Assembly (NCBI GenBank): GCA_020846695.1
Contig: JADLDM010000042.1
Coordinates: forward strand, 1 to 33,664
Direction: 5' to 3'
DNA: 33,664 nucleotides
DNA from: a bacterium
GTDB lineage: Bacteria > Electryoneota > RPQS01
In this document: positions 412-18,077 of the stretch, in pieces
How the letters are laid out: every line of letters begins with the position of its first letter
Numbering within the stretch: position 1 is the first letter of the stretch
Program-made: the position numbers and the translations under genes
The notes under the pieces: generated by a model
Told to the model about the DNA's origin: nothing
Seen by the model: the letters and a program-made list of their open reading frames with translations, nothing else
Databases searched by the model: none

Positions 412-438
412 GTAGCTGCTGCCCCTGTGGCTGCAGAT
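412..438 (+). repeat. GTAG-headed REP-like palindrome, type A
   Basis: Begins GTAGCTGCTGCCCC and continues TGTGGCTGCAGAT, an imperfect palindrome of GGC/GCC arms. It differs from the copy at 1183-1210 at two positions in the aligned part. It lies 4 bases after the FtsB-like stop codon. Confidence 0.7.
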
Positions 439-442
439 AGTG

Positions 443-485
443 GGGCGGCCCGGTGCTTGTCAAGCACTGGCCGCCCGTTTTTCTC
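443..485 (+). terminator. Intrinsic terminator after FtsB-like gene
   Basis: Outer arms GGGCGGCC (443-450) and GGCCGCCC (469-476) enclose the hairpin GTGCTTG-T-CAAGCAC (453-467). A GTTTTTCT tract follows on the plus strand. Confidence 0.8.
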
Positions 486-496
486 ATTGCCACGTT

Positions 497-522
497 GTAG
501 GGGCAGGTCCCCAACCCGCCCG
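497..522 (+). repeat. GTAG-headed REP-like palindrome, type B
   Basis: Begins GTAGGGGCAGGTCCCC and ends AACCCGCCCG. It is the counterpart, in the opposite orientation, of the element at 18052-18077. It lies 7 bases before the DUF502 start codon. Confidence 0.65.
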
Positions 523-529
523 TTTTCTT

Positions 530-1186
530 ATGACCCCACAAGTCCCGATCAAGAAGAGTATCTCCTCCCGCTTCCGTAAGGCATTCTTCACTGGCTTGCT
601 CGTGGTTGCTCCGCTCTGGCTGACGATCTATGTGATCATCCTGGCGGTGCGCTTGCTGGGCGGAGTATTGTCGCCTTATGTGCGGCTTGCGGCGGAGACG
701 ATCTTCGAGTTGGAGAAGATGCCGAAATTGGTGGGGATTCTCTCTGACTTGGTTGCGTTCATCCTGACCGTGATTCTGATTGCCTTGATCGGCGTGATTG
801 TTCGCCGTGTGGTGGGGAAGAAGATATTTGAGTGGCTCGACAAACTGTTGACGCACATCCCCGTCGTGCGCGACATCTATGACGGCGTGCGCAAGTTCAT
901 TCAGGTCTTCTTCGGTGATCAGAAAAAGTTCAAAGGTGTGGTCGCGGTGCGCTTTCCCACTCATGAGAGCCTGTCCGTGGGATTCGTCACCGGCGAAAGC
1001 ACGATGATTCCCAACGAAGGCAAGCGCATTCACGTCTTTGTTCCCACCGCGCCGAATCCGACTTCGGGTTTTCTCTATCTATTAAGAGAGAGTGAAGTAA
1101 TTCCGCTCGACATCACGGTTGATGAAGCCGTGAAGCTGATCATCTCCGGCGGCGCTATCGTCCCCGAGCGACATACTCCGTCGTAG
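530..1186 (+). CDS. DUF502 family inner-membrane protein
   Basis: A 218-residue protein with two membrane segments near the N-terminus (about residues 17-42 and 62-85) and a soluble C-terminal domain. The stretch HIPVVRDIYDGVRK after the second helix matches the conserved P(V/L)VRxIY block of DUF502. The following phrases (VAVRFPTHESLSVGFVTGE, FVPTAPNPTSGFLY) also fit this family of 200-220 residue membrane proteins of unknown function. The ATG at 530 gives the usual family length; the longer reading frame from 440 would translate terminator and repeat DNA. I see no clear Shine-Dalgarno site before 530. A GTAG-headed palindrome ends 7 bases upstream of the start, and another begins on the stop codon itself (TAG at 1184-1186 lies within GTAG). 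Confidence 0.85.
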   Translation: MTPQVPIKKSISSRFRKAFFTGLLVVAPLWLTIYVIILAVRLLGGVLSPYVRLAAETIFELEKMPKLVGILSDLVAFILTVILIALIGVIVRRVVGKKIFEWLDKLLTHIPVVRDIYDGVRKFIQVFFGDQKKFKGVVAVRFPTHESLSVGFVTGESTMIPNEGKRIHVFVPTAPNPTSGFLYLLRESEVIPLDITVDEAVKLIISGGAIVPERHTPS

Positions 1187-1210
1187 CGGCTGCCCCTGTG
1201 GCTGCCGATC
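1183..1210 (+). repeat. GTAG-headed REP-like palindrome, type A, on a stop codon
   Basis: Begins GTAGCGGCTGCCCC and continues TGTGGCTGCCGATC. The TAG of the head is the stop codon of the DUF502 gene. Confidence 0.75.
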
Positions 1211-1224
1211 TTCATCGCTACCGG

Positions 1225-1264
1225 CGGCCAGTGCTTGTCAAGCACTCTGGCCGTCTTCTTTTTG
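1225..1264 (+). terminator. Intrinsic terminator after DUF502 gene
   Basis: Arms CGGCCA (1225-1230) and TGGCCG (1248-1253) enclose GTGCTTG-T-CAAGCAC (1231-1245), with a 2-base bulge, then TCTTCTTTTTG. It has the same inner hairpin as the terminator at 443-485. Confidence 0.8.
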
Positions 1265-1323
1265 CTCCTCGTCGCTCTTGTGCATCCCATACCCGCAACA
1301 CAACTGTTTACAATCCCTTACAC

Positions 1324-1345
1324 AAAAAAAGAGGCTTTTGCCTCT
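1324..1345 (-). terminator. Minus-strand intrinsic terminator in gene-free region
   Basis: On the minus strand AGAGGC-AAAA-GCCTCT is followed by seven T. It lies about 280 bases past the AI-2E gene, which already has a terminator nearer to it, so this one may belong to a short separate RNA or act as a back-up. Confidence 0.6.
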
Positions 1346-1577
1346 CAATTATGAACGTATTTTCATAAAACACTGTTTTACATAAACAACAAAGACTTGA
1401 CAAACGTCAAGTTTGTGTGTATATTAGAACACCGCTTTTCGCCCCGCCCCGTCCTCGCCTCAACGCATTCAGACTGCCGCCTCTTCAAAAACAACCCCTT
1501 CCGTTCGGTCATTTTTTTTTCGACGCTTCATAGTTTTCAGGGACTTACTCTCGAACTGTCTGTTTTCATGAGCCAAG
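1346..1577. other. Gene-free stretch with stacked inverted repeats
   Basis: Besides the promoter and terminators listed separately, this stretch holds ATGAA-N6-TTCAT (1351-1366), a perfect palindrome TAAAACA-C-TGTTTTA (1366-1380) and a T run (about 1512-1519). No credible ORF lies on either strand; the open plus frame running on into the AI-2E gene is its antisense shadow. A poor divergent promoter (TTGACG at 1410-1405, GTTTAT at 1387-1382, 17-base spacing) can be read on the minus strand. Confidence 0.5.
1397..1425 (+). promoter_or_regulatory. Near-consensus sigma70-type promoter with no gene behind it
   Basis: TTGACA at 1397-1402, a spacer of exactly 17 bases, and TATATT at 1420-1425. A perfect 7-base inverted repeat (ACTTGAC-AAAC-GTCAAGT, 1395-1412) covers the -35 box and could be an operator. 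Downstream on this strand there is no credible coding sequence before the convergent AI-2E gene, so it may drive a small RNA. Confidence 0.6.
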
Positions 1578-1601
1578 AAAAAGGCGACCCAAGGCCGCCT
1601 T
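1578..1601 (-). terminator. Terminator of the AI-2E gene
   Basis: On the minus strand AAGGCGGCC (1601-1593) pairs with GGTCGCCTT (1589-1581), 8 of 9 matched, and a T run follows. It lies about 20 bases past the stop codon. Confidence 0.75.
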
Positions 1602-1621
1602 CTCAGATTCGGATTCATCGC

Positions 1622-2683
1622 TCATCGTTTATCGCTTCCCAGCTCCGCCGAGTAGAACTCTATAAGTACCTTCAGAAGCGAGGCGATGACCGGGCCGATC
1701 AGAAATCCCCAGAATCCGAAGACTGCGATACCGCCGATGGTGGAAAGGAAGACAAGCAGCTCGTGCAAATTCGTTGCGCGGCGCACCAGATAAGGACGCA
1801 GAAGGTTGTCCACGTTGGCAATCACAATCCAACTCCACAAGAAGAGCGCGATACCCTGCCACGTCTGACCAAAGAGAATCAGAAGAACTGCGGCAGGCAT
1901 CAGAATGATTTGCGCGCCGACAACCGGAATGATTGTCGCAAGCACGAGCAGCACGGTCCAGAAAAACGGCGATGGAATCCCGCAAATCCAAAAAGCAAGT
2001 CCGCCCAACCCGCCCTGCACGACACCGATAATGCCGAGCGTCTTAAGAGTGGTGAGGGACGTGGTGAAAAAATCACGAAAAAGGGTCTCCGACTGCTCAC
2101 GTGATAACGGCAAGAGCCCTTTAAGCCATGACAGAAACTCCGCTCCGTCTATATAACAGAAAAAGAGAGTGTAAAGCATCACGAAAATCAGCATCACAGC
2201 ATTGGCGATGCCGCTCGCCGTCTTCTTCGCAACGTCAAGCAGAAACGTCGTCGCGCCTTCGGCAAGGGACTCGAGCTTGTCGGTCACGGTCTCCGCATCA
2301 ATCCTGTAGCCAAACAATTCGATTCCGTCCGATCCAGTCACCCGCGAGAGCAGTGACTCCAATCGCGGCTCCAACCTGTGAAAAAACTCCTGCCCTTGTC
2401 CCGCCAACTCTACGACATCTCCTGCCATTATGGTCAGAACTGATGCCACCGGCCCCACTACCAGCACAAACACTGTTACAACAGAGAGCGCGGAGGACAA
2501 CGACTTGCGATTGCGTGTCCATTTCAAGAATTTCTCATAGATCCCGCTCGTCATGCTCCACAACAGCACTGCGCCCACCACTCCAAGCAGCAGAGAGTGA
2601 ATCACATAGAGAAATGCCGCCAGAAGCGCGAACATTGCGATCACGACGAAGCGTCGGCGGTTTGTTAAAGTGGATTCAGTCAT
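1622..2683 (-). CDS. AI-2E family transporter (PerM/YdiK-like permease)
   Basis: A 353-residue polytopic membrane protein. Hydrophobic helices occur near both ends: two close to the N-terminus (about 11-45), one near 60-80, then a polar periplasmic region of about 75 residues, followed by five or so C-terminal helices. This matches the AI-2E_transport (PF01594) pattern. The C-terminal part contains family-typical phrases such as GGLAFWICGIPSPFFWTVL and GFLIGPVIASLLKVL. Members export small molecules or act as Na+/H+ antiporters; the substrate here is unknown. The ATG at 2683 has GAGGA 7 bases upstream; a longer frame to 2713 would run through the terminator of the Tol operon. The gene stands alone with its own terminator downstream (1578-1601). 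Confidence 0.88.
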   Translation of the reverse strand: MTESTLTNRRRFVVIAMFALLAAFLYVIHSLLLGVVGAVLLWSMTSGIYEKFLKWTRNRKSLSSALSVVTVFVLVVGPVASVLTIMAGDVVELAGQGQEFFHRLEPRLESLLSRVTGSDGIELFGYRIDAETVTDKLESLAEGATTFLLDVAKKTASGIANAVMLIFVMLYTLFFCYIDGAEFLSWLKGLLPLSREQSETLFRDFFTTSLTTLKTLGIIGVVQGGLGGLAFWICGIPSPFFWTVLLVLATIIPVVGAQIILMPAAVLLILFGQTWQGIALFLWSWIVIANVDNLLRPYLVRRATNLHELLVFLSTIGGIAVFGFWGFLIGPVIASLLKVLIEFYSAELGSDKR

Positions 2684-2704
2684 GGTTTCGTCCTCATAGA
2701 GAAA

Positions 2705-2730
2705 CCCCGCCATGTGCGAACATGACGGGG
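2705..2730 (-). terminator. Hairpin terminator of the Tol-Pal operon
   Basis: Arms CCCCGCCATGT (2705-2715) and ACATGACGGGG (2720-2730) pair with one wobble. On the minus strand TTTCT follows. It lies 60 bases past the cpoB stop and just before the AI-2E ribosome-binding site, so it could also affect that gene. Confidence 0.65.
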
Positions 2731-2789
2731 CGAAAAACTACTCGCCGTTGTGGCTTCCAAAGCCGCAAAGGCAGAACAAAAACGACGCA

Positions 2790-3503
2790 TCAGCGGCCCA
2801 TTTCTGCGAGTCTCTGTTGCGCGACTTTGGCCTCTTCACTGTTGGGGAAATCGCGGACGAGCTGCTGCCACACCGTGCGCGCTTCCTGCGGTCGCGAGAT
2901 GGACTTGTAGCAAAGTCCGAGCTTGAGCATCGAAGCCGGAGCCTTCCAGCCCATCGGATCCATGTCAATCACACGCGAGTACTCTGCGGAGGCATTATCG
3001 TAGTCCTTTCGCGCGTAGAAACTCTCGGCCAAACCGTATCGCGCATCATCGGCCAATTCCGATTTCGGATTCTGTCCGAGAAACGAAAGGAAACCAACTT
3101 CCGCCAAGTCATAGTTGCCGAGACTCAAGTCCTGCATCGCGGCGTCATAGACGTCCACTCCGACGGCAGTGGGTCTCGTCGCATCAACACCGCCGGATTG
3201 CCTCATCTCTTCGACGGAGGCAAAGGTGCGGTCGAAGCGCGTGAGGATTTCATCGAGACGCGTGGCGAGGGTCTCCACTCTCTCTTCCATCGCGGAAGAG
3301 CCGTATTCGGAATTTGCGCGCATTTCGCGCAGAGAATTCTCGACGGACTCAAGAGTGCGTTTCATCCACTCCTGATCGGTTTTGACGCTGTCCAAGTCCG
3401 CGCGAATTTTTCGCGAGTCCTCTTGGAAGCCGACGATTTCTTTTCTCGTCGCGCAGCCGAAGAGGAAGAGTGAACTCAGGAGCGACAGAAACAGAAGGCG
3501 CAT
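2790..3503 (-). CDS. cpoB: CpoB/YbgF-like TPR lipoprotein of the Tol-Pal system
   Basis: A 237-residue lipoprotein. The signal sequence ends in the lipobox LFGC (Cys17). A long coiled coil follows at about residues 20-105. A C-terminal block of tetratricopeptide repeats begins at about 115 with VYDAAMQDLSLGNYDLAEVG. This is the CpoB/YbgF architecture: a periplasmic partner that couples Tol energy to peptidoglycan synthesis and outer-membrane constriction. It is the last gene of the Tol-Pal operon, 14 bases after pal, and is followed by a hairpin terminator at 2705-2730. AGGAG lies 6 bases before the ATG at 3503. A GTG at 3506, one codon earlier, has poorer spacing. Unlike enterobacterial CpoB, which has a cleavable signal peptide, this version is predicted to be lipidated. 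Confidence 0.88.
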   Translation of the reverse strand: MRLLFLSLLSSLFLFGCATRKEIVGFQEDSRKIRADLDSVKTDQEWMKRTLESVENSLREMRANSEYGSSAMEERVETLATRLDEILTRFDRTFASVEEMRQSGGVDATRPTAVGVDVYDAAMQDLSLGNYDLAEVGFLSFLGQNPKSELADDARYGLAESFYARKDYDNASAEYSRVIDMDPMGWKAPASMLKLGLCYKSISRPQEARTVWQQLVRDFPNSEEAKVAQQRLAEMGR

Positions 3504-3517
3504 CACACGCTCCTGAT

Positions 3518-4069
3518 TTAGTTGCGGCTTTCCGGTGTGTTCATCTTGACGCGGAACTCGACGCGGCGATTGCGCGACCAGTTGGACTCTTCATGTCCCG
3601 GATCGGAAGGGCGCTCTTCACCGTAGCTGATGGTTTCGAAGCGCGCGCCGGAGATTCCTTCCGCTTCCATGGCACGGAGCGCGGCCTTCGCGCGACGCTC
3701 GCCCAAAGCAAGGTTATACTCGTTAGTGCCGCGCTCGTCGCAATGTCCTTCGAGTGTGACGGTCCAATCCGTCCACTTGCGCAGAATGTCGGCGTTGTTG
3801 CGAATCTTTTCGCGTTCGCCGGCGCGGATTTCACTGCGGTCGAAATCGAAGTAGACCACGTGAACAAGCGCCATGTCGCGCTCCATTTCGTCGCGGGTTT
3901 CGCGATCGGTGGCGGTTCCTTCGGTTCCCTCTTCGACGGGAGTGATTTCTTCGGTCTTGGAAGGCGGCGCGGATTCTTTAGGCATCTTCTTCTTGCAGCC
4001 CGGCGTCAGCGCGAGCGAAGCAAGAAGCAAGGCAAGTAATGTGAAGTAAGCAAAGTGTTTGGATTTCAT
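3518..4069 (-). CDS. pal: Peptidoglycan-associated lipoprotein Pal
   Basis: A 183-residue lipoprotein with a signal peptide and lipobox LTPGC (Cys25), then an acidic linker, then an OmpA-like peptidoglycan-binding domain from about residue 68. The diagnostic block GHCDERGTNEYNLALGERRA is present, including the Asp and Arg that bind meso-diaminopimelate. VYFDFDRSEIR marks the first strand. Pal anchors the outer membrane to peptidoglycan and is recycled by TolB and TolQRA. The start at 4069 is supported by AGGAG with good spacing; longer frames translate the tolB-pal spacer. It sits 44 bases after tolB and 14 bases before cpoB. Confidence 0.96.
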   Translation of the reverse strand: MKSKHFAYFTLLALLLASLALTPGCKKKMPKESAPPSKTEEITPVEEGTEGTATDRETRDEMERDMALVHVVYFDFDRSEIRAGEREKIRNNADILRKWTDWTVTLEGHCDERGTNEYNLALGERRAKAALRAMEAEGISGARFETISYGEERPSDPGHEESNWSRNRRVEFRVKMNTPESRN

Positions 4070-4113
4070 GTTCTCTCCTGAAGGGGAGTTCATTATGGAT
4101 GATAAGTAGAAAT

Positions 4114-5481
4114 TTATGGTCTGGTCAGCGGCAGAATCGGTCCCCACTGCGGTTGCGAGGCTTCGATGCCGAAGGTAAGCTGGCGATGATTGCTTCCGTC
4201 CCAATTGCAGGTCCAGATTGAAGACTTGCCCTGTTCAGAAGAGGTGTAAACGATTTTCATTCCGTCGGGCGACCATGACGGATCGAATTTGTTTCCGCCG
4301 TCGGTAAGTCTGCGTTCGCGCTGTCCGCCGGGTTGAATCGTGAAGATTTGAAACTTCGGAAATGCCTGACTCTCGCGGCTGCAAAAGACGATCAAATCTC
4401 CGCGCGGCGACCAGCGCGCGGTTTCATTATAGATTCCGTTGAAGGAGAGTCTGCGCACGTCCACGCCGTCGAAATCCACCTGATAGATTTGCGGACTTCC
4501 TCCGCGATCCGAGGTGAAGACCAACTCTCTTCCGGTGGGCGACCACGAGGGCGAGGTGTCGTCGCGATTTGAAAAGGTCAGTTGCGTCTTGCCTGAACCG
4601 TCGGCGTGCGCGCGATAGATTTCAAAGTTGCCGTTTTCACTCGATGCGTAAGCCACCCACTGTCCGTCAAATGAAACGGAGGGTGCGCTGTCGGTTTTGG
4701 GCGTGGCGACGAAGGGGCGGGCTCTTCCGCTTGCGATTTCGTAGCGATAGACGTCGGCGGTGCCTTCGCGAAAAGTCGTGAAGTAGAGCGCGTTTCCGTC
4801 GGGCGTCCACGTGGGCGACATGTTCAAAGTCTGATCGCGGGTGAGACTGTGCGCATTCGCGCCGTCCCAATCCATGATCCAAAGGTCTTTGTTCTGCGCC
4901 GTGCGTACGACGAATGCGATCTTCGAGGTGAAAGAGCCCTCTTCTCCGGTCAGCATTCGGGTGATCCACGCGGCGATGTCATGCGCGGCATCGCGCGCGT
5001 GATCCGGTTGAAAGGAGAAGTCCTGCACGTGCGTGGGTTCGCGCAACGGCGGCTGAAAGAGCGAAATTGAGACGGTGGCCTGCTCCCAGCGCAGTGAAAC
5101 GGAACCTCTCACGCGAGCGGCTTGGGCGCCGGTGAAGGTAACCAGCGTGTCAAAGGTTGTGCCGACGCGCTTGACCTGAATCGAAGTGTCGGGCGGAAGA
5201 TCGGAGGGTTCAATCAGATTGAAGTAACCCGAGTAGGCCAGATCTCCTTTGACGAAGCCGCGCAATTGGGATGGCAAATCGGCGAGAAAGGCGGAATCTC
5301 CGTCGGCGATGAAATCATGCACGACGAGATCGAGTCTTCCGACTGATGAGGTTTCGGTGCGCAGGGTGACTTGAGAAAGAGCGGGCGATACAAAAAGCGC
5401 GCAGAGAGCGAGCGCGATACTAAGAACCGGTATTCGGATTGACGACAAATTCAAAGTTGATTCCGAGTTGCCCTTCTTCAT
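4114..5481 (-). CDS. tolB: Periplasmic Tol-Pal protein TolB
   Basis: About 455 residues. It has an N-terminal signal sequence (hydrophobic stretch PVLSIALALCALFVSPALS), then the TolB N-terminal domain (about 35-190), then a beta-propeller of WD40-like PD40 repeats. At least five repeats can be read from phrases such as SPTWTPDGNALYF, APSVSFDGQWVAY, SPSWSPTGRELVF and DPSWSPDGMKIVY. It ends in QPQWGPIL, typical of the family. TolB cycles between TolA and Pal during cell-envelope constriction. The only in-frame ATG is at 5481, which overlaps the end of the upstream TolA/TonB-like gene by 62 bases and has no obvious Shine-Dalgarno site. In-frame TTG codons further in give an alternative start nearer that gene's stop, so the exact start is uncertain. 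Confidence 0.94.
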   Translation of the reverse strand: MKKGNSESTLNLSSIRIPVLSIALALCALFVSPALSQVTLRTETSSVGRLDLVVHDFIADGDSAFLADLPSQLRGFVKGDLAYSGYFNLIEPSDLPPDTSIQVKRVGTTFDTLVTFTGAQAARVRGSVSLRWEQATVSISLFQPPLREPTHVQDFSFQPDHARDAAHDIAAWITRMLTGEEGSFTSKIAFVVRTAQNKDLWIMDWDGANAHSLTRDQTLNMSPTWTPDGNALYFTTFREGTADVYRYEIASGRARPFVATPKTDSAPSVSFDGQWVAYASSENGNFEIYRAHADGSGKTQLTFSNRDDTSPSWSPTGRELVFTSDRGGSPQIYQVDFDGVDVRRLSFNGIYNETARWSPRGDLIVFCSRESQAFPKFQIFTIQPGGQRERRLTDGGNKFDPSWSPDGMKIVYTSSEQGKSSIWTCNWDGSNHRQLTFGIEASQPQWGPILPLTRP

Positions 5482-6049
5482 ATTGCGCGGGCAAGGGCGG
5501 AAGTTTTCCGGCGGACCTGACGGCGCGTTCGGCGGCCTGATCAATCAGCAGATTTCCCGAAGCCGTGACGAGGGTTATGGTTGAGATGCTTCCGTCGGCG
5601 AGAATGACGAATCCGACGGTGGCCATAAGAGTTCCGCGCACACCGGGAGGCGGGCGGAAATTTCTTTCGATCTTGGACTGAACGAGCGCGAGATAGAAAT
5701 CGTACTCGAATCCCGACTGCTGCACTTTGAGAGTGCCCACTTCGCCTTTTAGCTCTTTGGGAGCTTTCTCGGTCGAGCGCGGTTTTTTCTCGGTGAGCGC
5801 TTCTTTTTTTGGCTCGGTCTTCTTCTTGTCTTTTTTCGGCTGCTCTAATGGAGGCGCGGTATCCGGAGCCTTGATCTCTTTTGCTTCGATTTTCTGAACC
5901 GGAACTTGCGGCGCTTTGGGGCGAATCAGCTTGACCTTGGTGACTTCGGGCAGCGGCGGTTTTTCATTCGCCTTCTCGATACTTGCCCAGAGCAGCGCGG
6001 AGAAGAAGAGAACATGCAGAATGATGGAGCCGACGAACGGTTTGCGCAT
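5420..6049 (-). CDS. TolA/TonB-like energy-transducing protein
   Basis: A 209-residue protein with one N-terminal membrane helix (about 5-24), a Pro/Lys/Glu-rich extended region (about 30-105), and a C-terminal TonB-type domain (about 115-205). The C-terminal domain has the typical phrases RNFRPPPGVRGTLMATVGFVI, LADGSIS and SAGKLPPLP. Because it lies between tolR and tolB it should serve as the TolA of this Tol-Pal system, spanning the periplasm from TolQR to TolB/Pal. Its C-terminal domain is read more easily as TonB/TolA-C than as enterobacterial TolA, which is usual outside Proteobacteria. The ATG at 6049 is preceded by GAAGG. The gap to tolR holds a C-rich hairpin. Its 3' end overlaps the predicted tolB start. 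Confidence 0.9.
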   Translation of the reverse strand: MRKPFVGSIILHVLFFSALLWASIEKANEKPPLPEVTKVKLIRPKAPQVPVQKIEAKEIKAPDTAPPLEQPKKDKKKTEPKKEALTEKKPRSTEKAPKELKGEVGTLKVQQSGFEYDFYLALVQSKIERNFRPPPGVRGTLMATVGFVILADGSISTITLVTASGNLLIDQAAERAVRSAGKLPPLPAQYEEGQLGINFEFVVNPNTGS

Positions 6050-6107
6050 GACTCAGCCTTCAGATTCCGGCGGGGAACCGTGCTTGAGATGCAATGGCGA
6101 CACCACA

Positions 6108-6140
6108 CCCCCCCTTGTTCCCCCCCGCAAGCAGGGGGGA
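6108..6140. repeat. C-rich/G-rich hairpin inside the Tol operon
   Basis: Seven C, TTGTT, seven C, GCAAGCA, six G. The C and G runs and CTTG/CAAG pair. It occupies the 137-base gap between tolR and the tolA/tonB-like gene, the widest gap in that operon. Confidence 0.6.
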
Positions 6141-6186
6141 TAATCAGACGAACGATTAATCCCCGCTCGGCGACAGAGAAACATCG

Positions 6187-6657
6187 TTAGCCTCTGCGGC
6201 CGGTGCGTGAATGCAGGGGATCGGCGACGAGACCCAAGTCGGTGACTCCGACTTGACGCAGCACATCAATCACATGCAGCACTCTTTGATAGGGCACTTC
6301 GGCATCGGCTTGCAGAAAGACGGCCTGTTTGGAACTGCCGTAGGTTTGTTCGAAGGCGACGTCGAAACTGGATTCATCCACCTTGGCCTGATCAATCATG
6401 ATCGTTCCGTCCTTCTTGACGGTGATCGTGATTCCTTCGTCGTTGGCGGCTTCGGCGGATGCGGCTTGCGGCACGGAGACTTCGACGGAGCTTTTCAGCA
6501 TCGGCGCGGCAACCATGAAGATAATCAGGAGCACGAGCGTGACGTCCACGAGCGCGGTGATGTTGATATCAGCGAGCGGACGATAGGTGATGCGCGTGAT
6601 TCCGCGTCTTCTCTTGCCTTTCGGCGGATCGTCTTGCGGTGCGGCTCCGGCAGCCAT
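6187..6657 (-). CDS. tolR: TolR/ExbD biopolymer transport protein
   Basis: A 156-residue protein: a short basic cytoplasmic tail, one membrane helix at about 33-52, and a periplasmic ExbD-type domain. The helix carries the conserved Asp of the proton path (block INITALVDVTLVLLIIFMV, Asp38 region). The periplasmic end has the family-typical YQRVLHVIDVLRQVGVTDLGL. With TolQ it forms the proton-driven motor that energises TolA. The Shine-Dalgarno GGAAG lies 8 bases before the ATG and overlaps the tolQ stop codon region (12 bases between genes), which suggests translational coupling. Confidence 0.95.
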   Translation of the reverse strand: MAAGAAPQDDPPKGKRRRGITRITYRPLADINITALVDVTLVLLIIFMVAAPMLKSSVEVSVPQAASAEAANDEGITITVKKDGTIMIDQAKVDESSFDVAFEQTYGSSKQAVFLQADAEVPYQRVLHVIDVLRQVGVTDLGLVADPLHSRTGRRG

Positions 6658-6669
6658 TTCTTAGTCTTC

Positions 6670-7377: not shown

Positions 7378-7428
7378 CAGTCCGATAAAATCATGTTTAG
7401 GCGAAGATTACAGATGCTTGCTGACCTC

Positions 7429-7443
7429 GGCCATGTTATGGCC
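7429..7443. promoter_or_regulatory. Palindrome in tolQ leader
   Basis: GGCCAT, 3-base loop, ATGGCC. A perfect 6-base-arm inverted repeat about 15 bases downstream of the tolQ -10 box. It could be an operator or an mRNA hairpin in the 5' leader. Confidence 0.35.
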
Positions 7444-7459
7444 TACTTCATAAAATACA

Positions 7460-7488
7460 AATATATGAAAAAACCCACAGATAGTCAA
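7460..7488 (-). promoter_or_regulatory. Promoter of the Tol-Pal operon
   Basis: Read on the minus strand: TTGACT (7488-7483), a 17-base spacer, and TATATT (7465-7460). It has the same boxes and spacing as the ispG promoter. The -35 overlaps the stop codon of the DUF2480-like gene. The expected transcript start is about 75 bases before the tolQ ATG. A perfect GGCCAT-GTT-ATGGCC palindrome (7429-7443) lies just downstream in the leader. Confidence 0.7.
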
Positions 7489-7766: not shown

Positions 7767-7771
7767 GGGGG

Positions 7772-7803
7772 AATATATGAAATATGAGATATGAAATATG
7801 AAT
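7772..7803. repeat. AT-rich imperfect tandem repeat
   Basis: About four to five diverged copies of an ATATGA(A/G) unit just upstream of the TTG start of the DUF2480-like gene. It could be a slippage tract or an AT-rich promoter element. Confidence 0.45.
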
Positions 7804-7817
7804 TGAGAAACAGAAAG

Positions 7818-8166: not shown

Positions 8167-8261
8167 TGCGTGCGGGGATATTTACCCGCACGGCTTGAGA
8201 CGGCCGGAGGCCGCCGCTAGTTTATGCGATGCGGGCCTGAGATCCTTGCGAGGACAGGCCC
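8167..8261. repeat. Hairpin cluster upstream of the 113-residue hypothetical gene
   Basis: Three structures in a row. First, CGTGCGGG and CCCGCACG around an 8-base loop (about 8168-8191). Second, the type C element (8198-8221). Third, a two-part hairpin GGGCCTG (8233-8239), TCCT-TGCG-AGGA (8243-8254) and CAGGCCC (8255-8261). Confidence 0.6.
8198..8221 (-). repeat. CTAG-headed REP-like palindrome, type C
   Basis: On the minus strand it begins ACTAGCGGCGGCC and ends CCGGCCGTCT. All 24 bases are identical to 17742-17765, over 9 kb away. It lies in the spacer upstream of the 113-residue hypothetical gene. Confidence 0.75.
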
Positions 8262-8277
8262 ACAACGGCGACTTGCA

Positions 8278-10542: not shown

Positions 10543-12156
10543 CTAATCTTCCACTGCCACGACCTGATAATATCTCTCATCTGTAGCAGTGACGGCGGTT
10601 GGGTCGGTCAAGAAGGTGTCGGGTGTTGCGGCGACCAAAGTCACGAAGGGGCCGCCGGGAAGATCGGAGCGATAGACTTCATAGGTTGCGGCTTCGACGG
10701 AGTTCCAGTGCAGGCGCGCGCCGTTTCCGTCGCGGATGACGACGAGATTTTGCGGCGCGGGAGGAGCAAGTCGGAACCATGTTGAATAGGCATCGCCGAC
10801 GTCATTGCGCGTGTCCACCCAGCCGTAGTAGAAGCTGTTGTTGTGACGAAAAGCCGCGCCGTTGTAATCCCCCAGAAAATTTGTAATGGTCGGATCGCAC
10901 ATCACGGTGGAAATCGGAAACTCGGGTGCGAACGTCACGCCTCCGTCCTGAGATATAGTCGCGTAAGGACGGTAGAGACAATCGTTCGCGTCATCGCGGC
11001 GATCAAGCCATGCGACTCCGAGATCACCTGATACAGGATTGACGGCGATCCACTGCCACCATTGCCAACTGTCGGTTGTGCTGTGAACAATCACGGGCGC
11101 GGTCCACGTGGTTCCGCCGTCGGAAGAAGTGGAAAGCCAGACATCGGGATCGCTGCCGTTGTCGCTTGCCCAGGAAAGATAGAGCCAACCGCGGCGCGGG
11201 CCGGCTGAAAGATCGCAGGTGATGACCGGATAGCTCGGCGTGCGAAAGGTTCCGCACGGATTGGGAATTCCCCACACGTCGTTAAACGAAGCGACGTTGA
11301 GATCCGCGCCGAAAGTCACGCCGCCGTCAAACGAGCGATCGAGTTGAATCATCCCGGTGTAATAATCAAACCAGACGACATAGACTTCGCCGTTCGGGCC
11401 GGTGCACGGGCAGGAGAATTGGCAGCCGTCGGACGACGAAATTCTCAAGGGCGCGGAATAGGGAGTGGCTCCGCCGGTCGAGCGCGAGAAGTAAATCGGC
11501 GAGCCGCCTAACCAATAGAAGCGCGTCCACGAGACGTAGTGTGTGTTCACGTAAGGCGAAGTGGGCACGATATCCGCGCAGGCGTAAGGCTTGTCCTCGA
11601 AATCGGGAGTTGGATTGCCGATGTGCTCCGCGATAACCAACGGCGCAGACCACGTGGCTCCGTCGTCGGTTGAGGATTGCACATAGAGACCGCCGTCATC
11701 GGTGGTGCGATCAAAGCAGATGTAGTTGGCAAAGAGCGTTCCGTTGTAGGCGATTGCGGCAACCGGATCGCCGGCGGCTTCAAAGACTCCAGCAGGACCG
11801 CGCGTGACGAGCGCATCTGAGAATGTTGCGCCGCCGTCGGTGGAAACGTAGAATCCTCCGGAAGCATCGCCGTTGCGGTAATCATTCGAGCCGCCCATGA
11901 CGATGTTGGGATTCTGCACCCACGCGCACATGGTGATTTCATTCTGGCGGCGCGTAGTGGCATCCTGATTCATCTTCACGTTCGGGCCGTAGTCGTCATA
12001 GGGAGTCTGCGGCGCGCGAAGATCAAGTTCAGGTTCGTTCATTACGACGCCGGAAACGGGAACGCGCGACTGTTGCGCGAGACGCTTTCCGATTTGCGAA
12101 GCGAAAGAAGTTGAAAGAGCAAGTGTCAAGGAACAAATCATTGCAAGTCGTAGCAT
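10543..12156 (-). CDS. Secreted Asp-box (BNR, sialidase-like) beta-propeller protein with Fn3-like tail
   Basis: A 537-residue secreted protein. The signal peptide is MLRLAMICSLTLALSTSFAS. The body has repeated Asp-box motifs of the S-x-D-x-G-x-T-(F/W) type, for example STDGGATF, STDDGATW, SFDGGVTF, SSDGGTTW and SQDGGVTF, which mark a sialidase/BNR-type propeller at about 60-440. A final 90 residues (PPAPQNLVVIRDGNG to YYQVVAVED) look like a fibronectin type III domain. There is no T9SS sorting domain. Asp-boxes define a fold, not sialidase activity; I see no clear arginine triad, so the substrate is unknown. GAGGAG fits the ATG at 12156 (6-base spacing) better than the ATG at 12162, which it abuts. 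Confidence 0.85.
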   Translation of the reverse strand: MLRLAMICSLTLALSTSFASQIGKRLAQQSRVPVSGVVMNEPELDLRAPQTPYDDYGPNVKMNQDATTRRQNEITMCAWVQNPNIVMGGSNDYRNGDASGGFYVSTDGGATFSDALVTRGPAGVFEAAGDPVAAIAYNGTLFANYICFDRTTDDGGLYVQSSTDDGATWSAPLVIAEHIGNPTPDFEDKPYACADIVPTSPYVNTHYVSWTRFYWLGGSPIYFSRSTGGATPYSAPLRISSSDGCQFSCPCTGPNGEVYVVWFDYYTGMIQLDRSFDGGVTFGADLNVASFNDVWGIPNPCGTFRTPSYPVITCDLSAGPRRGWLYLSWASDNGSDPDVWLSTSSDGGTTWTAPVIVHSTTDSWQWWQWIAVNPVSGDLGVAWLDRRDDANDCLYRPYATISQDGGVTFAPEFPISTVMCDPTITNFLGDYNGAAFRHNNSFYYGWVDTRNDVGDAYSTWFRLAPPAPQNLVVIRDGNGARLHWNSVEAATYEVYRSDLPGGPFVTLVAATPDTFLTDPTAVTATDERYYQVVAVED

Positions 12157-12226
12157 GTTCATCTCCTCGGATGTGCGGGCGGAAAAATCAAAAATTGAAA
12201 ATCGAAAGATCAGAATCTTCAACATA

Positions 12227-12254
12227 GGTCGGCAGCCACAGGGGCAGCCGCTAC
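12227..12254 (-). repeat. GTAG-headed REP-like palindrome, type A
   Basis: On the minus strand it begins GTAGCGGCTGCCCC and continues TGTGGCTGCCGACC, nearly identical to 1183-1210 and in the opposite genome orientation. It begins about 15 bases past the ispH stop codon. Confidence 0.75.
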
Positions 12255-12268
12255 ATCGCGCACGGAAC

Positions 12269-13210
12269 TCAGCAGGAGCAATCGTCTTTTTCGATTGCGG
12301 CGAGTTCGTGGTCTTGTTGTTGGGCTTCCCAGTTAGCGGTGTCGCGCAGGATTTCGGCGCCTGTTTGTTGGCCGATGGTGTCGCGGACTTTTTCCAAGAG
12401 CCAGTGGGGAGTCGAGGCGGAACCGGTGACGCCGATGGTGTCGCTTTCACGGAACCACGAATAGTCCAGTTCGCTTTCATCCACGATCAGGTGCGCGCGA
12501 TCGTTCATGCGCTTGCAGACACCGTAGAGCGCCTTGGTGTTGGAACTCTTGGTTCCGCCGACCATGATGATGACGTCCACCTGCTTGGCGAAGACTTCGA
12601 GATCGGAATCGCGGCCCACCACGAAGCGACAGAGCGTATTTTCGACTTGCACTTCCACGTTATGCGCATATTCCTTGATCCATGCGATGCGCTCTTCAAA
12701 CCATTCACGCGAGACGGTGGTTTGCGCAAGAATGAAAACTTTCTTATTGGGATCGAGCTGCTTCACGTCATCGCGCTCGTAAACGACATAGGCTTTATTG
12801 TCGCAATGTCCCTTGATGCCGATGGTTTCGGGATGATAGGGCTTGCCGATGATGACGACCTGCTCGCCAGCTTCATAGTGTTTGCGCGCGATATTTTGCG
12901 AGCGCGTCACGACGGGACAGGTTCCGTCAATCAGCTCGACGCCAAGTTGTTTTGCGCGTTCATAGGTCTCGGGCGGTTCACCGTGCGCGCGAATCAGGAC
13001 TTTCTTGGGGCCGCAGTCTGAAGCCATTCCGCCGTGGTCAATTGAAGAGAGTCCTTGCTCGGAAAGACGCGCGATTTCGACTTCATTGTGAATGATGTCG
13101 CCGAGCGAGACCAAGGGCAGGCGCGTCTCCTCCATGACTTTTTCGGCCATTTTCACGACGCGGCGCACGCCACCGCAAAAGCCGGCGCGCGGATCAACAA
13201 GAACTTTCAT
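12269..13210 (-). CDS. ispH: 4-hydroxy-3-methylbut-2-enyl diphosphate reductase IspH
   Basis: A 313-residue IspH (LytB), the last enzyme of the MEP pathway, reducing HMBPP to IPP and DMAPP. The three cluster cysteines are Cys12 (GFCGGV), Cys98 (GTCPVV) and Cys194 (NTLCRFVVGRD). Substrate residues include His41 (HNE), His76 (AHGE), the PYHPE block with Glu128, Thr164-165, and the SSN triad at 222-224. The segment after Cys194 (CRFVVGRDSDLEVFA) lacks the common CxATxxRQ form and resembles the CRQVxNRDxxLxxFA form of Bacteroidota. The gene overlaps dxs by 4 bases (ATGA). It is the last gene of the long minus-strand operon; a GTAG-headed palindrome lies 15 bases past its stop. Confidence 0.97.
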   Translation of the reverse strand: MKVLVDPRAGFCGGVRRVVKMAEKVMEETRLPLVSLGDIIHNEVEIARLSEQGLSSIDHGGMASDCGPKKVLIRAHGEPPETYERAKQLGVELIDGTCPVVTRSQNIARKHYEAGEQVVIIGKPYHPETIGIKGHCDNKAYVVYERDDVKQLDPNKKVFILAQTTVSREWFEERIAWIKEYAHNVEVQVENTLCRFVVGRDSDLEVFAKQVDVIIMVGGTKSSNTKALYGVCKRMNDRAHLIVDESELDYSWFRESDTIGVTGSASTPHWLLEKVRDTIGQQTGAEILRDTANWEAQQQDHELAAIEKDDCSC

Positions 13211-15153
13211 TCGGCAGAGTTCTCCTTTTTCACGGCCTCACGCAGAATCATGCTCGAGGCGTCTGCCTTCAGGAGACCCGCAATAGCAAGCGAGATGTGC
13301 GCGGGTGAAAGTCCGGCAATTTCCAAGAGTTCTTTGCGCGTGGCGTGTTCGATGAAGTGATAGGGAAGGTGGAGCGCGTGGAAGAGATGCTCATGTCCGT
13401 TGCTCTTCAGATACATCGCGACCTGCGAACCAAATCCTCCGTGGCCGGTGCCCTCTTCGATGGTCAAGACGGCTTCATGAGAATCGAGCAGTTCTGAAAG
13501 CAGCATCTCATCGAGGGGCTTAACGAAGCGCGCATTGACGAGCGTGACATTGTATTCTTCTTCGGCAATCACCTTGCGAGCAGCCTCAACCATGGTTCCG
13601 GTTGCAAGCACGAGCACGCGACGCCCCTCTTTCATCACGTCCCAGCTTCCGACTTTCAAGAGCGCGGGAGATTCATTCCAGTTGATGACGTCGGGGGCTT
13701 TATCGCGCGGATAGCGAATAGCAAAGGGGCCGTCGGCCCAATGCAGACTTGTGTGAAGGAGATTGCGCAACTCCTGACCGTCACGCGGCGCGGCGATGAC
13801 CATGCCGGGAATGGTTGCAAGGTAGCCGAGATCATAACAGCCGTGATGCGTCTGTCCGTCTTCACCGACCAAGCCCGCTCTGTCCATGCAGAAGATAACG
13901 GGCAGATGCTGAATGGCGGCATCGTGAAGCGCGTGATCGTAAGCGCGCTGAAGAAACGACGAGTAGATTGCGCACACGGGCTTGATGCCTTCCGCGGCGA
14001 GACCTGATGCGAACGTGACGCCGTGACCTTCGGCGATTCCGACGTCAAAGAACTGCGCGGGGAGTTCTTCGGCGAACTCAACGAGCCCTGTTCCTTCCTT
14101 CATCGCGGCGGTGATTGCACAAACACGCGAATCCTTCCTTGCTTCTTCAAGCAGCGCCTTGCCGAAGACGTCCATGTAAGCCTCTGTCGGGGGAGCAGAG
14201 TCGGCAGCTTTGGGTTCAACTTTGGCAGCGGCTTTTACGGCGTGCCACGAAACGGGTTCGGCTTCGGCGCATTCATAGCCTTTGCCTTTGCGCGTCAGGA
14301 AGTGAATCAGGGTCGGGTGTTTGTGTCCGGCTTTGATCTTCTTTAGCAGTGTGACGACGTCTTTGACGTTGTGTCCGTCGAAGGGGCCGAAGTATTGGAA
14401 TCCGAATTCTTCGAAGAGCATTCCCGGCGAGACGAGACTTTTGAGCGAGGCTTCAAAGCGGCCTGCAAAGCTGCGCATGGTGTCTTTTCCGACGGGCGAT
14501 TTTCCCATCAGCTCCCACATCTCGTCTTTGATTTTCGAGAGCAGCGGATTGGTTTCCATTTTGGCGAGAAATTTCGGCACGGCTCCGACGTTGGGCGAGA
14601 TGGACATGCGGTTGTCATTCAGGATGACGGTGAAGTCGCGTCCCGAATGTCCGGCGTTGTTCAACGCTTCGAAGGCGAGCCCTCCGGTCATGCCGCCGTC
14701 ACCGATGACAGAGACGACGGAGTGTTTCTCTTTCTTCATGTCTCGCGCGACGGCGAGGCCGAAGGCTGCTGAAAGTGAAGTGGACGCATGTCCGGCTCCG
14801 AAGGAGTCGTATTCGCTTTCGGTGCGTTTCAGAAATCCGGAGAGGCCGCCTTTTCTACGAATGGTTGCAAGCTGATCTCTGCGGCCCGTGAGAATTTTGT
14901 GAATGTAGCCTTGATGTCCCGTGTCCCAGACGATTTTGTCGGTGGGAGTGTCATAGACGTAATGCAGCGCGACGGTGAGTTCGACGACGCCGAGTGATGC
15001 GGCGAGATGACCTCCGACTTCATTGATGGTGTCCCAGAGATAGCTTCGCAGTTCAGCGCAAAGCTGTTCGAGTTCATCAAGCGAGAGTTGTTTCAGCTCG
15101 GCGGGTGAGTTTACGCGCGAGAGTAGCGGAAACACTTCACGGGTTACAGTCAC
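13207..15153 (-). CDS. dxs: 1-deoxy-D-xylulose-5-phosphate synthase
   Basis: A 648-residue thiamine-diphosphate enzyme that condenses pyruvate and glyceraldehyde 3-phosphate, the first step of the MEP pathway. The family landmarks are present: GGHLAASLG (His49), DTGHQGYIHKILTGR, the ThDP/Mg site GDGGMTGGLAFEALNN (151-166), NDNRMSISPNVG, and in the pyrimidine domain DVGIAEGHGVTFASGLA, DRAGLVGEDGQTHHG and RYPR. Full length. The start is a GTG at 15153, two bases after the ccsA stop and with GAGG upstream. Its stop overlaps the ispH start, so the two MEP genes should be translationally coupled. Confidence 0.98.
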   Translation of the reverse strand: MTVTREVFPLLSRVNSPAELKQLSLDELEQLCAELRSYLWDTINEVGGHLAASLGVVELTVALHYVYDTPTDKIVWDTGHQGYIHKILTGRRDQLATIRRKGGLSGFLKRTESEYDSFGAGHASTSLSAAFGLAVARDMKKEKHSVVSVIGDGGMTGGLAFEALNNAGHSGRDFTVILNDNRMSISPNVGAVPKFLAKMETNPLLSKIKDEMWELMGKSPVGKDTMRSFAGRFEASLKSLVSPGMLFEEFGFQYFGPFDGHNVKDVVTLLKKIKAGHKHPTLIHFLTRKGKGYECAEAEPVSWHAVKAAAKVEPKAADSAPPTEAYMDVFGKALLEEARKDSRVCAITAAMKEGTGLVEFAEELPAQFFDVGIAEGHGVTFASGLAAEGIKPVCAIYSSFLQRAYDHALHDAAIQHLPVIFCMDRAGLVGEDGQTHHGCYDLGYLATIPGMVIAAPRDGQELRNLLHTSLHWADGPFAIRYPRDKAPDVINWNESPALLKVGSWDVMKEGRRVLVLATGTMVEAARKVIAEEEYNVTLVNARFVKPLDEMLLSELLDSHEAVLTIEEGTGHGGFGSQVAMYLKSNGHEHLFHALHLPYHFIEHATRKELLEIAGLSPAHISLAIAGLLKADASSMILREAVKKENSAE

Positions 15154-15155
15154 GG

Positions 15156-16895
15156 TTAGACAGCCTCAGCGATTTTGCGCTGCACGCGCGTTGACGATCC
15201 GGATGACGGAGGCTTGGACGGGTTATTGGACCAGCCGCCGCCCTTAAGTTTCATGGCGACCCAAGTAAGGAATACGCCTTCCAGAGCGAGATAGGCGAAG
15301 GCTTCCCACGGAATTCCGGGTGAGGAGCCTGCGCCGTAGCTGTGCAAGCCGGAGAGATAGAAATTCACTCCGTAGTAGGTCATGACGACGACGGGAAAGA
15401 CGGCAACGGAGGCAAAGGCGAGACCTTTCCAATTGAGCCATCCGGCGCTGCGTCCGTGAAGCAGCGCAATATAGACAAACCAACTGATTAAGGCCCACGT
15501 CTCTTTCGGATCCCATCCCCAGAATCTTCCCCAACTGACTTCAGCCCAGACTGCGCCCAAGAGAATACCGAAGATCAGGAGCAGACTACCGACCTGCATG
15601 ACGTGAAGATTTGCCTTCGACATCGTGGCAAGCTGGGGAGTCATTTCGCCTTTGGATTTCACTGCCTGCACGAGCAGGAAGTGCCCGATGACCATGGCGA
15701 CGGCGAAGCAGCCGTAGCTTGCAAGGATGATGATGACGTGATAGATAAGCCAGTAGGATTGCAATGCGGGGACCAACGGATTGATGCCGCGATCGAGACT
15801 CGCGTAGTGCGCGAGCCAGAGGATGACTCCTCCCATCAGCGATCCTGCGAGGCCGAAGATTTTGTCGCGCTTGATCAATTCGTAAATTGCGGAGATCAGG
15901 ACAAGCGTTGCGCCGATGGCGAGCAGCGATTCATACATATTTGACCACGGCGCGCGACCGCCGATGATCCAGCGCAGATACATGCCGCTTGCAAAGAGCA
16001 GGAATCCTGCGATCATTGCATACATTCCGTGAGCGCGATACTTCTCGAAGCCCTTACGATAGGCGAGAGCAAAGAGCGCAGCGGCCAGCAAGAGCGCGAG
16101 TCTGGCCCAGAAGAAGGGCTGAAAGCGATTGTAGGTAACCTCGATTCCGGCGCGATAGGTAACGTCGGGATAGTCGGCGAGCATCTTCTGCTGCGTCTCG
16201 ACGAAAATTTCGGCGGAGGTATTGAACATGTCCGCGCGATTGTCGGTGACGGAGTGATACATGCCCGCGAAAGCGACGCCGAGATTGGAGAGCGATTCAG
16301 GCGAGCCGACGGCATTCATGGAATCGCGCTTCAGTTGCTGGAGCGCTTCGGGCATGGATAGCCACGTGACGTCGGGATTCCCGTCTTCAGGCGGCGCGAA
16401 GAGTGGAATGTCATGCGCGAATATCAGTTGCAGCATCGAAATCTTGTGCAGGACTTCGTTGGTCTTGGATTGCGTGAAGGAGAGCTTCTCGCCGGCCTGT
16501 TGCGCGGCTTGCGCTTCCTGCATGATTTCCATCAGGCGCGGTTTGCCTCGCAATTCGGGAACGGTGAAGCGGCTGCCCTTTGCGTCATTGAGACCGAGTT
16601 CTTTGCGCAGATCACCTTTGGGGAGATAGATCAGCGGGACATCGCGCCAGCGCGAGCCGTCCGCCATCCAGCGGAAATAGGTTTCGACGGGATTCTGGCC
16701 TTCGTAGGTGTCTTTGCCATATACATCGGAGATGGTTTCGCGCGCGAAGGTATCGAGCGGCTTGACTCGTCCGCCGTCCTGCACAAGAATCTGTCCCGCG
16801 AGTTTCCAGTTGAACTCTTCGGCATGAGCGTTCAGTGCGAACGCTGAAATGAAGAGTGTGACTATGAACTTGAGGATTTGCGAGCGCTTGTTCAT
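15156..16895 (-). CDS. ccsA: System II cytochrome c maturation protein CcsA, with long periplasmic N-terminal domain
   Basis: A 579-residue protein. It has a signal-type N-terminus, a periplasmic domain of about 230 residues starting LVQDGGRVKPLDTFARETI, and then the multi-helix CcsA core. The haem-handling WWD-type motif reads WGRFWGWDPKETWALISW (about 455-471), preceded and followed by helices with external histidines. CcsA with ResB delivers and attaches haem to apocytochrome c outside the inner membrane. The N-terminal domain is seen in other CcsA-like proteins of this broad group, but its role is not known to me. The gene starts with ATGA overlapping the resB stop, and AGAGGT lies upstream. 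The C-terminus is Ser/Pro-rich. Confidence 0.93.
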   Translation of the reverse strand: MNKRSQILKFIVTLFISAFALNAHAEEFNWKLAGQILVQDGGRVKPLDTFARETISDVYGKDTYEGQNPVETYFRWMADGSRWRDVPLIYLPKGDLRKELGLNDAKGSRFTVPELRGKPRLMEIMQEAQAAQQAGEKLSFTQSKTNEVLHKISMLQLIFAHDIPLFAPPEDGNPDVTWLSMPEALQQLKRDSMNAVGSPESLSNLGVAFAGMYHSVTDNRADMFNTSAEIFVETQQKMLADYPDVTYRAGIEVTYNRFQPFFWARLALLLAAALFALAYRKGFEKYRAHGMYAMIAGFLLFASGMYLRWIIGGRAPWSNMYESLLAIGATLVLISAIYELIKRDKIFGLAGSLMGGVILWLAHYASLDRGINPLVPALQSYWLIYHVIIILASYGCFAVAMVIGHFLLVQAVKSKGEMTPQLATMSKANLHVMQVGSLLLIFGILLGAVWAEVSWGRFWGWDPKETWALISWFVYIALLHGRSAGWLNWKGLAFASVAVFPVVVMTYYGVNFYLSGLHSYGAGSSPGIPWEAFAYLALEGVFLTWVAMKLKGGGWSNNPSKPPSSGSSTRVQRKIAEAV

Positions 16896-17719
16896 GCGGT
16901 GACCTCTTGCGTGTTTTCTTGTGCGAAAGATTCAGTTTCTTCCGCAAGCGCGCGGTCACGCGGGACGGGCACGGGCGGGTATTTTTGTTTGAGCCAGGGT
17001 TTCAGGAAGAAGATTCCGAACATGGCGAGGACGAGCAGGCTGCCGCCGATCCACATGTAGGGCACGCCGGGATCATAGGAGACTCCGAGCACTGTTGCTG
17101 TTCTGCCGTCTTCGAGATCAATCCAGGAGGCCTGACTTATCTTGTAGCCTTTGTAAACGAGCGGGTGATTGAGGATGACGTCCCACTCGATGGTTTCGGG
17201 ATTGGAGGGATCGTCCACGATGACGTGCGATTTGAAAAGCGACGTCATTTGCGATCCGGGATAGAAGACCTGCTCGAAGTTGACGCAGTGGACGCCGAAG
17301 GGCAGGGAAACTTCCTGACCGATTTGTGTATCGAGAGATGTAGGGTCAAGCTCTTCCAAACCGAAGGTGGATTCGGTTGAGCCTTCGAGGATGACCATCT
17401 GGCCCTGCATTCCGAAGCGGTGGGTTATGAGCGAGCCTGCCATGAGGATGAGCAGGGCGACGTGCGTCAGGAGCCACGGGTATTGGTGCGGCCTGTAGGG
17501 CGCGCGGCGCAATGTGCAGCCGATCAGATTGAGCGCGAGGAGAACGATCAGCGTATCGAACCACCAGGTGCGATAGATGAGCAATCGTGCGGCGCCGTTT
17601 GAAAGCACGGTCTCAATCCACGTTCCGTAGCCCATTGCGATGCCCAAGGCGAGCAGGAGCACAATGGTGAGCTTGACGGAAGAAAAGAGCAGCCAGATTT
17701 TGTCGAGCAGTTTATTCAA
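16892..17719 (-). CDS. resB: ResB-like cytochrome c biogenesis protein, short form
   Basis: A 275-residue membrane protein paired with CcsA. It opens with the ResB signature: two helices separated by a short loop (LLFSSVKLTIVLLLALGIAM at about 10-29, then WWFDTLIVLLALNLIGCTLRR), then a third helix at about 85-105. A periplasmic segment and a last helix at about 222-243 follow. Typical ResB proteins are well above 400 residues; this one has a much reduced periplasmic domain. The segment NHPLVYKGYKISQASW matches the ResB C-terminal core. The start is a TTG at 17719 with AAGGA 6 bases upstream. ResB chaperones apocytochrome and haem with CcsA in System II. Confidence 0.9.
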   Translation of the reverse strand: MNKLLDKIWLLFSSVKLTIVLLLALGIAMGYGTWIETVLSNGAARLLIYRTWWFDTLIVLLALNLIGCTLRRAPYRPHQYPWLLTHVALLILMAGSLITHRFGMQGQMVILEGSTESTFGLEELDPTSLDTQIGQEVSLPFGVHCVNFEQVFYPGSQMTSLFKSHVIVDDPSNPETIEWDVILNHPLVYKGYKISQASWIDLEDGRTATVLGVSYDPGVPYMWIGGSLLVLAMFGIFFLKPWLKQKYPPVPVPRDRALAEETESFAQENTQEVTA

Positions 17720-17741
17720 TGCGGGTCCTTACTGGAATACC

Positions 17742-17765
17742 AGACGGCCGGAGGCCGCCGCTAGT
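17742..17765 (-). repeat. CTAG-headed REP-like palindrome, type C
   Basis: A second identical 24-base copy of the element at 8198-8221. It begins 8 bases after the nfu stop codon, before the resB TTG start. Confidence 0.75.
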
Positions 17766-17772
17766 ATGAGTC

Positions 17773-18033
17773 TTAGCTGACGATAACGACTTCGCGGAGG
17801 CCGGGGGTTTTTTCGAGGATGGTTCTGCGCACGCCGCCTTCCATCGCTGAGAGGGATGCGTTGCAGCCGTCACATCCGCCGCCCATAGTGATGGTTGCGA
17901 CGCCTTCTTTGAGCGAGAGCAGTTGCGCATCTCCGCCTTCAGAGTGAAAGATGGGGCGGAACATGTCGAGGAGTTTTTCGACTTTAGCGGAAAGTTCGAG
18001 ATCGAGATCTGTGGTTGTTTCGATGGAGCTCAT
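17773..18033 (-). CDS. Nfu-type Fe-S scaffold (NifU C-terminal domain)
   Basis: An 86-residue stand-alone NifU C-terminal domain. The block EGGDAQLLSLKEGVATITMGG is followed by the CxxC cluster site CDGC, then LSAMEGGVRRTILEKTPGLREVV. Two such subunits normally share one 4Fe-4S cluster and hand it to client enzymes. The position in an operon with IspG and IspH, both 4Fe-4S proteins, makes these likely clients. The start is the ATG at 18033 with only a weak purine-rich site upstream. REP-like palindromes flank the gene on both sides (18052-18077 and 17742-17765). Confidence 0.95.
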   Translation of the reverse strand: MSSIETTTDLDLELSAKVEKLLDMFRPIFHSEGGDAQLLSLKEGVATITMGGGCDGCNASLSAMEGGVRRTILEKTPGLREVVIVS

Positions 18034-18051
18034 GGATTTCTTTTGTTGTTG

Positions 18052-18077
18052 CGGGCGGGTCGGGGACCCGCCCCTAC
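18052..18077 (-). repeat. GTAG-headed REP-like palindrome, type B
   Basis: On the minus strand it begins GTAGGGGCGGGTCCCC and ends GACCCGCCCG; arms GGCGGGTC and GACCCGCC are perfect. It begins one base after the stop codon of the FNR-like gene. Confidence 0.75.

Follow-up and report, generated by a model that had tools for sequence, protein, structure and literature searches.

Putative RAYT-spread REP elements with GTAG and with [CT]TAG heads in the genome of an uncultured bacterium

The short palindromes scattered along the window, by which we mean the whole stretch of 33,664 nucleotides analysed here (contig C42), are very probably REP elements, non-autonomous repeats of about 25 nt that fold as single strands and have been spread by domesticated RAYT transposases (TnpA-REP, of the Y1 HUH type) encoded elsewhere in the same genome. 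This genome runs at least two versions of the system: a GTAG-headed one comprising the REP types A, B and E, and a [CT]TAG-headed one with a TCC loop comprising types C and D, which goes with a group of transposases referred to below as the RAYT2 clade. The proposal of the sequence-only reading, that all of the palindromes are RAYT-mobilised REPs, is borne out by copy number, by location in spacers, by covarying hairpins and by the presence of cognate RAYTs, but it has to be amended in one respect as the CTAG type has a RAYT clade of its own. We infer RAYT binding, cutting and REP mobility as follows. Each RAYT would bind its cognate REP on one strand, folded as a hairpin, using the tetranucleotide at the foot of the hairpin as a guide, and would cut at a nearby pyrimidine-containing, CT-like site; the cut REP would be joined to a new single-stranded target, with insertions being retained chiefly where they are harmless, that is in spacers and directly behind stop codons.

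All seven of the GTAG- or CTAG-headed spacer palindromes listed in that reading were located where it had placed them in the window sequence, and they sort into three families (type A, three copies; type B, two; type C, two), five of them following a stop codon by no more than 15 bases, as had been claimed. They are given here together with one additional palindrome resembling type C.

412..436, plus strand: type A REP; GTAG head; CTG..CAG stem variant; 3 nt past a TAA stop
497..521, plus strand: type B REP; GTAG head; divergent copy with 2 mismatches against the consensus and a weak fold; 88 nt from a stop codon
1183..1207, plus strand: type A REP; GTAG head, the TAG of which is the stop codon of the upstream gene
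1218..1256, plus strand: type-C-like palindrome, CTAC-CGGCGGCC-(AGTGCTTGTCAAGCACT)-CTGGCCGTCT; longer loop, the loop itself palindromic
8198..8221, minus strand: type C, REP-like; (A)CTAG head; TCC loop; 57 nt from a stop codon
12230..12254, minus strand: type A REP; GTAG head; stop codon 14 nt before
17742..17765, minus strand: type C, REP-like; (A)CTAG head; TCC loop; stop codon 8 nt before
18053..18077, minus strand: type B REP; GTAG head; consensus copy; stop codon 1 nt before

The consensus of type A is GTAG-CGGC.T.GCC-CCTGT-GGC.T.GCCG, with a T-T mismatch held in the stem, that of type B is GTAG-GGGCGGGTC-CCC-GACCCGCCC and that of type C is (A)CTAG-C-GGCGGCC-TCC-GGCCGTC. A scan of the window for GC-rich [GC]TAG-headed hairpins returned six, five of which are listed palindromes (both type C copies fall outside the hairpin criterion of the scan), whereas 60 dinucleotide shuffles of the window averaged 0.9 such hairpins and never exceeded 4. 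At 1183-1186 the TAG stop lies within the REP head and the gene ends at 1186, thus the insertion appears to have set the end of the gene. The element at 1218 can be described as type C with its loop lengthened (CTACCGGCGGCC...GGCCGTCT) and was absent from the earlier list; a second palindrome with the core GTGCTTGTCAAGCACT follows both plus-strand type A copies (1218-1256 and about 443-478, both on the plus strand). A further palindrome, GGGCCTGAGATCCTTGCGAGGACAGGCCC at 8229-8262, adjoins the type C copy at 8198 and is possibly another repeat, headed by GTGG when read on the minus strand.

Genome-wide counts were obtained by pattern searches of the host assembly, a 2.5-Mb metagenome-assembled genome of 215 contigs which is 81% complete. 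With up to 2 mismatches allowed, type A has 34 copies, type B 25 and type C 24, so that the suggestion of several sub-families in one genome holds for three dispersed families, none of which is confined to a few copies. A fourth family, type D (TTT-CTAG-CCGCGACC-TCCC-GGTCGCGG), has 17 copies in the host genome at up to 3 mismatches, and the host DNA examined yielded at least 15 of a fifth, type E (GTAGTGCCGCACTGCGTGCGCTC); reversed-pattern controls for types A, B, C and D gave no matches in any case. De novo k-mer discovery, carried out on contigs chosen for having no REP matches, yielded one further repeat only, of the GCCGAGC/AACCCGGC type. The families here thus number in the tens of copies (17-34), whereas those of E. 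coli number in the hundreds.

Predicted spacers, as delimited by a simple hexamer gene finder, contain 93 of the 94 copies of types A to D, whilst genes make up 83% of the window DNA by the same gene finder. The RAYT1 gene described below was overlooked by this gene finder, with the consequence that the type B copy inside it was scored as spacer, and the corrected number of coding copies is 2. The distances to stop codons, which the sequence-only reading had put forward as a check, show clustering for types A and B: among the 28 type A copies with both neighbouring genes, 17 are no more than 15 nt away from a stop codon against 4.4 expected from random placement within their own spacers (p < 5e-5), and five type B heads are as close (15 nt or less) where 1.1 would be expected. 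This clustering could reflect tolerance of insertions at such sites, a benefit to the transcript, or both.

Covariation and folding both show that the hairpins are genuine. In type D, 97.9% of the stem cells are paired and two-sided paired changes occur in four of the eight pairs, a score matched by none of 500 shuffles; in type A a single pair, the second, covaries, alternating between GC, CG and TA. As single-stranded DNA, good folds are given by both consensus copies of type A, by its CTG variant, by consensus B and by type D, with z-scores of -3.2 to -5.2 for type A and consensus B; the folds of the type B copy at 497 (z -0.9) and of the two type C copies (z -1.6 to -1.8) are weaker. A GT[AG]G tetranucleotide stands at the foot of the hairpin in 31 of 32 type A copies, 22 of 25 type B copies (23 counting GTGG) and all 15 type E copies. 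Types C and D have CTAG or variants of it in this position (in type C the heads are degenerate, about 10 of 24 reading CTAG and five CTAC) and have therefore been filed, from their sequences, as REP-like elements of a variant class. Immediately before the head stands a pyrimidine in 32/32 copies of type A, 23/25 of type B and 14/15 of type E, which fits a constrained joining site, though it does not fix the exact position of the cut.

There is no RAYT gene in the window, as had been reported, but the assembly contains three elsewhere, two of them found by a Pfam Y1_Tnp search (RAYT1 and RAYT2) and the third by a homology search with RAYT1.

RAYT1, C36:4947-5525, minus strand: an inverted pair of type B copies upstream, and a further type B copy lying in frame within the gene
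RAYT2, C197, about 6135-6602, plus strand: five CTAG hairpins of family D around the gene, on both sides
RAYT3, C25:34386-34949, plus strand: type E copies upstream, downstream and inside the gene

All three score at or above the cut-off of PF01797, and the HUH (DHVH or NHLH) and YIxxNP motifs are present. Against the NCBIfam model for the REP-associated tyrosine transposase (NF047646, cut-off 80) RAYT2 scores 108.9 bits, RAYT1 73.7 and RAYT3 68.9. In both RAYT1 and RAYT3, as well as in many homologues from relatives, the enzyme's own REP (type B and type E respectively) is carried in frame between the HUH and Y motifs. In another genome of the same family, G007, inverted type C copies lie either side of a RAYT2-clade gene, which is frameshifted. 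Pairings are thus available for B with RAYT1, D with RAYT2, E with RAYT3 and C with the RAYT2-clade gene of G007, so that each of these four types has a RAYT. The search for Y1 transposases which the sequence-only reading had recommended has recovered them in the very genome that holds the spacer-enriched copies. For type A, no RAYT neighbour was found in this 81%-complete assembly, nor was any copy of the type detected in a search of 60 relatives, and a search with an alignment profile for a fourth RAYT in the host genome produced only the duplicated 3' end of RAYT3. At this last locus (G000:C25:34339-35250, L393) the 3' end of the gene and the REP that follows it are duplicated about 200 nt downstream. 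A vaguely similar repeat, GTAG-NGGCNRCC...GTGGYNGCC, flanks and enters a subclass-2.4-like RAYT in G001, and is only a lead for type A.

The GTAG half of this picture is known biology. It is established that REPs have GTAG heads, that a genome may hold several REP families, each paired with a REPtron of its own, and that REPs occur inside genes (PMC3733652). An in-frame REP inside tnpA-REP between HUH and Y is a published peculiarity of subclass 2.4 (PMC6006769), which RAYT1, RAYT3 and their homologues in relatives reproduce. The REPtrons of E. coli, Pseudomonas and Stenotrophomonas (Nunvar 2010, PMC2817692; PMC3733652; Corneloup 2021, PMC8266576) share with those described here the GTAG head, the location in spacers, the imperfect hairpin of 20-30 nt and the coexistence in one genome of several families, each with its RAYT; however, type A here is without a found RAYT, and the host lineage is uncultured. 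By their sequences RAYT1 (for B) and RAYT3 (for E) are assigned to TnpA-Y1 subclass 2.4 (Quentin 2018, PMC6006769; group 4 of Bertels), with which they have in common the WQ and YIxxNP motifs and the in-frame GTAG REP, although RAYT1 carries DHVH in place of NH[IFV]H.

The CTAG half is the new part. Members of the RAYT2 clade were found in G000, G002, G007, G008, G009 and G010, all of one bacterial family, and in these six genomes the genes are flanked by hairpins with a [CT]TAG head and a (C)TCC loop (TTCC in some G007 copies), the stems of which vary from genome to genome. The stem pattern of G002/G009 recurs in 4 to 36 copies in each of eight genomes of the order, with 0-1 in reversed controls. 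In 48 TCC-loop copies from other genomes with their context, the base preceding TAG is C in 38, T in nine, A in one and never G, and the next base upstream, before the [CT]TAG head, is A in 44; as TAG was built into the search pattern, its conservation in those copies is not independent evidence. RAYT2 resembles the TnpA-Y1 subclass 2.2 and the E. coli TnpA-REP (PDB 4ER8) in its HUH, W94, W99 and YIHxNP, and the match to 4ER8 (E 6e-7) is the sole PDB sequence match and gives direct residue numbering. In the stretch 95-104 the E. coli enzyme is reported to contact GTAG through Q95, E100, H101 and R104 (PMC6006769, PMC8266576). Q95, [ED]100 and R104 are present in RAYT1 and in RAYT3 (WQPRFHDRVIR); RAYT2 has E, S, E and T at 95, 100, 101 and 104, its residues at the last three positions being S/E/T and not E/H/R, and the other members of its clade carry S or T at 100 and lack R104. 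The cognate REPs differ likewise, with a CTAG head and TCC loop for RAYT2 and GTAG plus a bulge for E. coli. None of the papers searched combined RAYT and CTAG.

Taken at the level of sequence, the CTAG type belongs to a separate class, marked by the [CT]TAG head and the TCC loop and paired with a RAYT clade of its own, rather than being a variant of the GTAG REP that shares the same kind of transposase. It could be argued instead that the difference between CTAG and GTAG heads is neutral drift and that a single RAYT serves all of the families, since the TnpA-REP of Stenotrophomonas still binds a CTAG mutant, with cutting reduced (PMC8266576), and the type C heads are variable. We regard this as improbable given the lack of a single G before TAG in the 48 copies, the pairing of B, D and E each with a different RAYT, and the loss from the RAYT2 clade of the residues which contact GTAG.

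Whether it is these changed residues that may account for the CTAG head was considered for the loci with assignable heads. In GTAG systems [DE]100 is present in 16/17 and R104 in 16/17, whilst both are found together in all four GGAG systems and in none of the eight [CTA]TAG systems, which take in one case from the Peribacteria, one from the Acidobacteriales and one further case outside the RAYT2 clade. The tree requires at least three changes of the non-G head label but offers no more than two independent pairs with support, each of which agrees with the expectation. On this basis it is conceivable, as a tentative proposal that we would not yet favour, that a RAYT clade has switched its guide, with an acidic residue at 100 plus R104 reading a G-first head (GTAG) and the clade without both reading [CT]TAG. 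A single code for all head types was considered and dropped, as TAAG- and AAAG-headed REPs of the Terriglobia pair with D100/R104 enzymes, GTGG-headed REPs pair with D100 enzymes which are mostly without R104, and two supported independent tree pairs are too few for significance.

Other head types were encountered in the course of this comparison. The RAYTs L195, L203, L218, L228, L248, L254 and L255 of the Terriglobia (Granulicella, Terriglobus) are flanked by TTAAG-headed hairpins, GGCACGGC-TTCA-GCCGTGCC, which represent another natural departure from GTAG. GGAG-headed REPs accompany the RAYTs L309, L321, L337 and L346, and GTGG-headed ones accompany L325, L331, L336, L341, L347 and L350, these enzymes coming from the same phylum plus one more distant genome; a D[RS]NI[FYS] motif is common to most of the GTGG-head enzymes. 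A separate group of Y1 transposases from the same order has an RRHR N-terminus and a YDDV motif (L142, L144-L149, L151, L154, L157, L160, L161), and some of its genes are flanked by other palindromes, for example GCCGAG-CAGGGTCCCC.. and GGTGACTCTCCAGAGTCACC, and resemble the published TIRYTs.

TIRYTs suggest a further way of reading the CTAG types, in which only the GTAG families would be REPs and types C and D would be remnants, namely terminal repeats, left by an insertion element of the TIRYT or another type. Copies of D do lie on both sides of RAYT2 as terminal repeats would, and relatives of RAYTs flanked by terminal inverted repeats have been described (Di Nocera 2013, PMC3733652), the TIRtrons of the Acidobacteria having, as here, Y1 transposases with flanking inverted repeats of which some are repeated in the genome. 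However, C and D are found singly, as dispersed hairpins whose stems covary, RAYT2 falls within the NCBIfam RAYT model, and the RAYT2 clade is flanked by fixed-head REP-like hairpins, the same head and loop standing beside its genes in six genomes; it is the RRHR group that looks more TIRYT-like, and its flanking repeats in these genomes are different. This reading is accordingly very unlikely. It is also very unlikely that the palindromes are immobile intrinsic transcription terminators or stabilisers of mRNA 3' ends. Copies of types A and B do gather just after stop codons, where hairpins can end or protect transcripts, but the near-identical 25-nt sequences with a fixed unpaired head form families of 17-34 copies, flank and invade Y1 transposase genes, include many copies distant from stops and in both orientations, and generally lack a T-run after the listed copies. 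As REPs, they may nevertheless have a secondary role as terminators or stabilisers.

The choice of REP by a TnpA-REP has been addressed, in the in vitro studies that we found, with a handful of GTAG systems. With GTAG and CTAG systems side by side in one genome, and with the natural CTAG/TTAG hairpins of relatives available together with their enzymes, the contributions of the first base of the guide and of residues 95-104 become testable. If the guide switch is true, these residues and the base that opens the guide would together constitute a specificity code which could be rewritten in either direction. The results also extend REP/RAYT biology to an uncultured lineage, and they show that searches for GT[AG]G alone miss a class of REPs.
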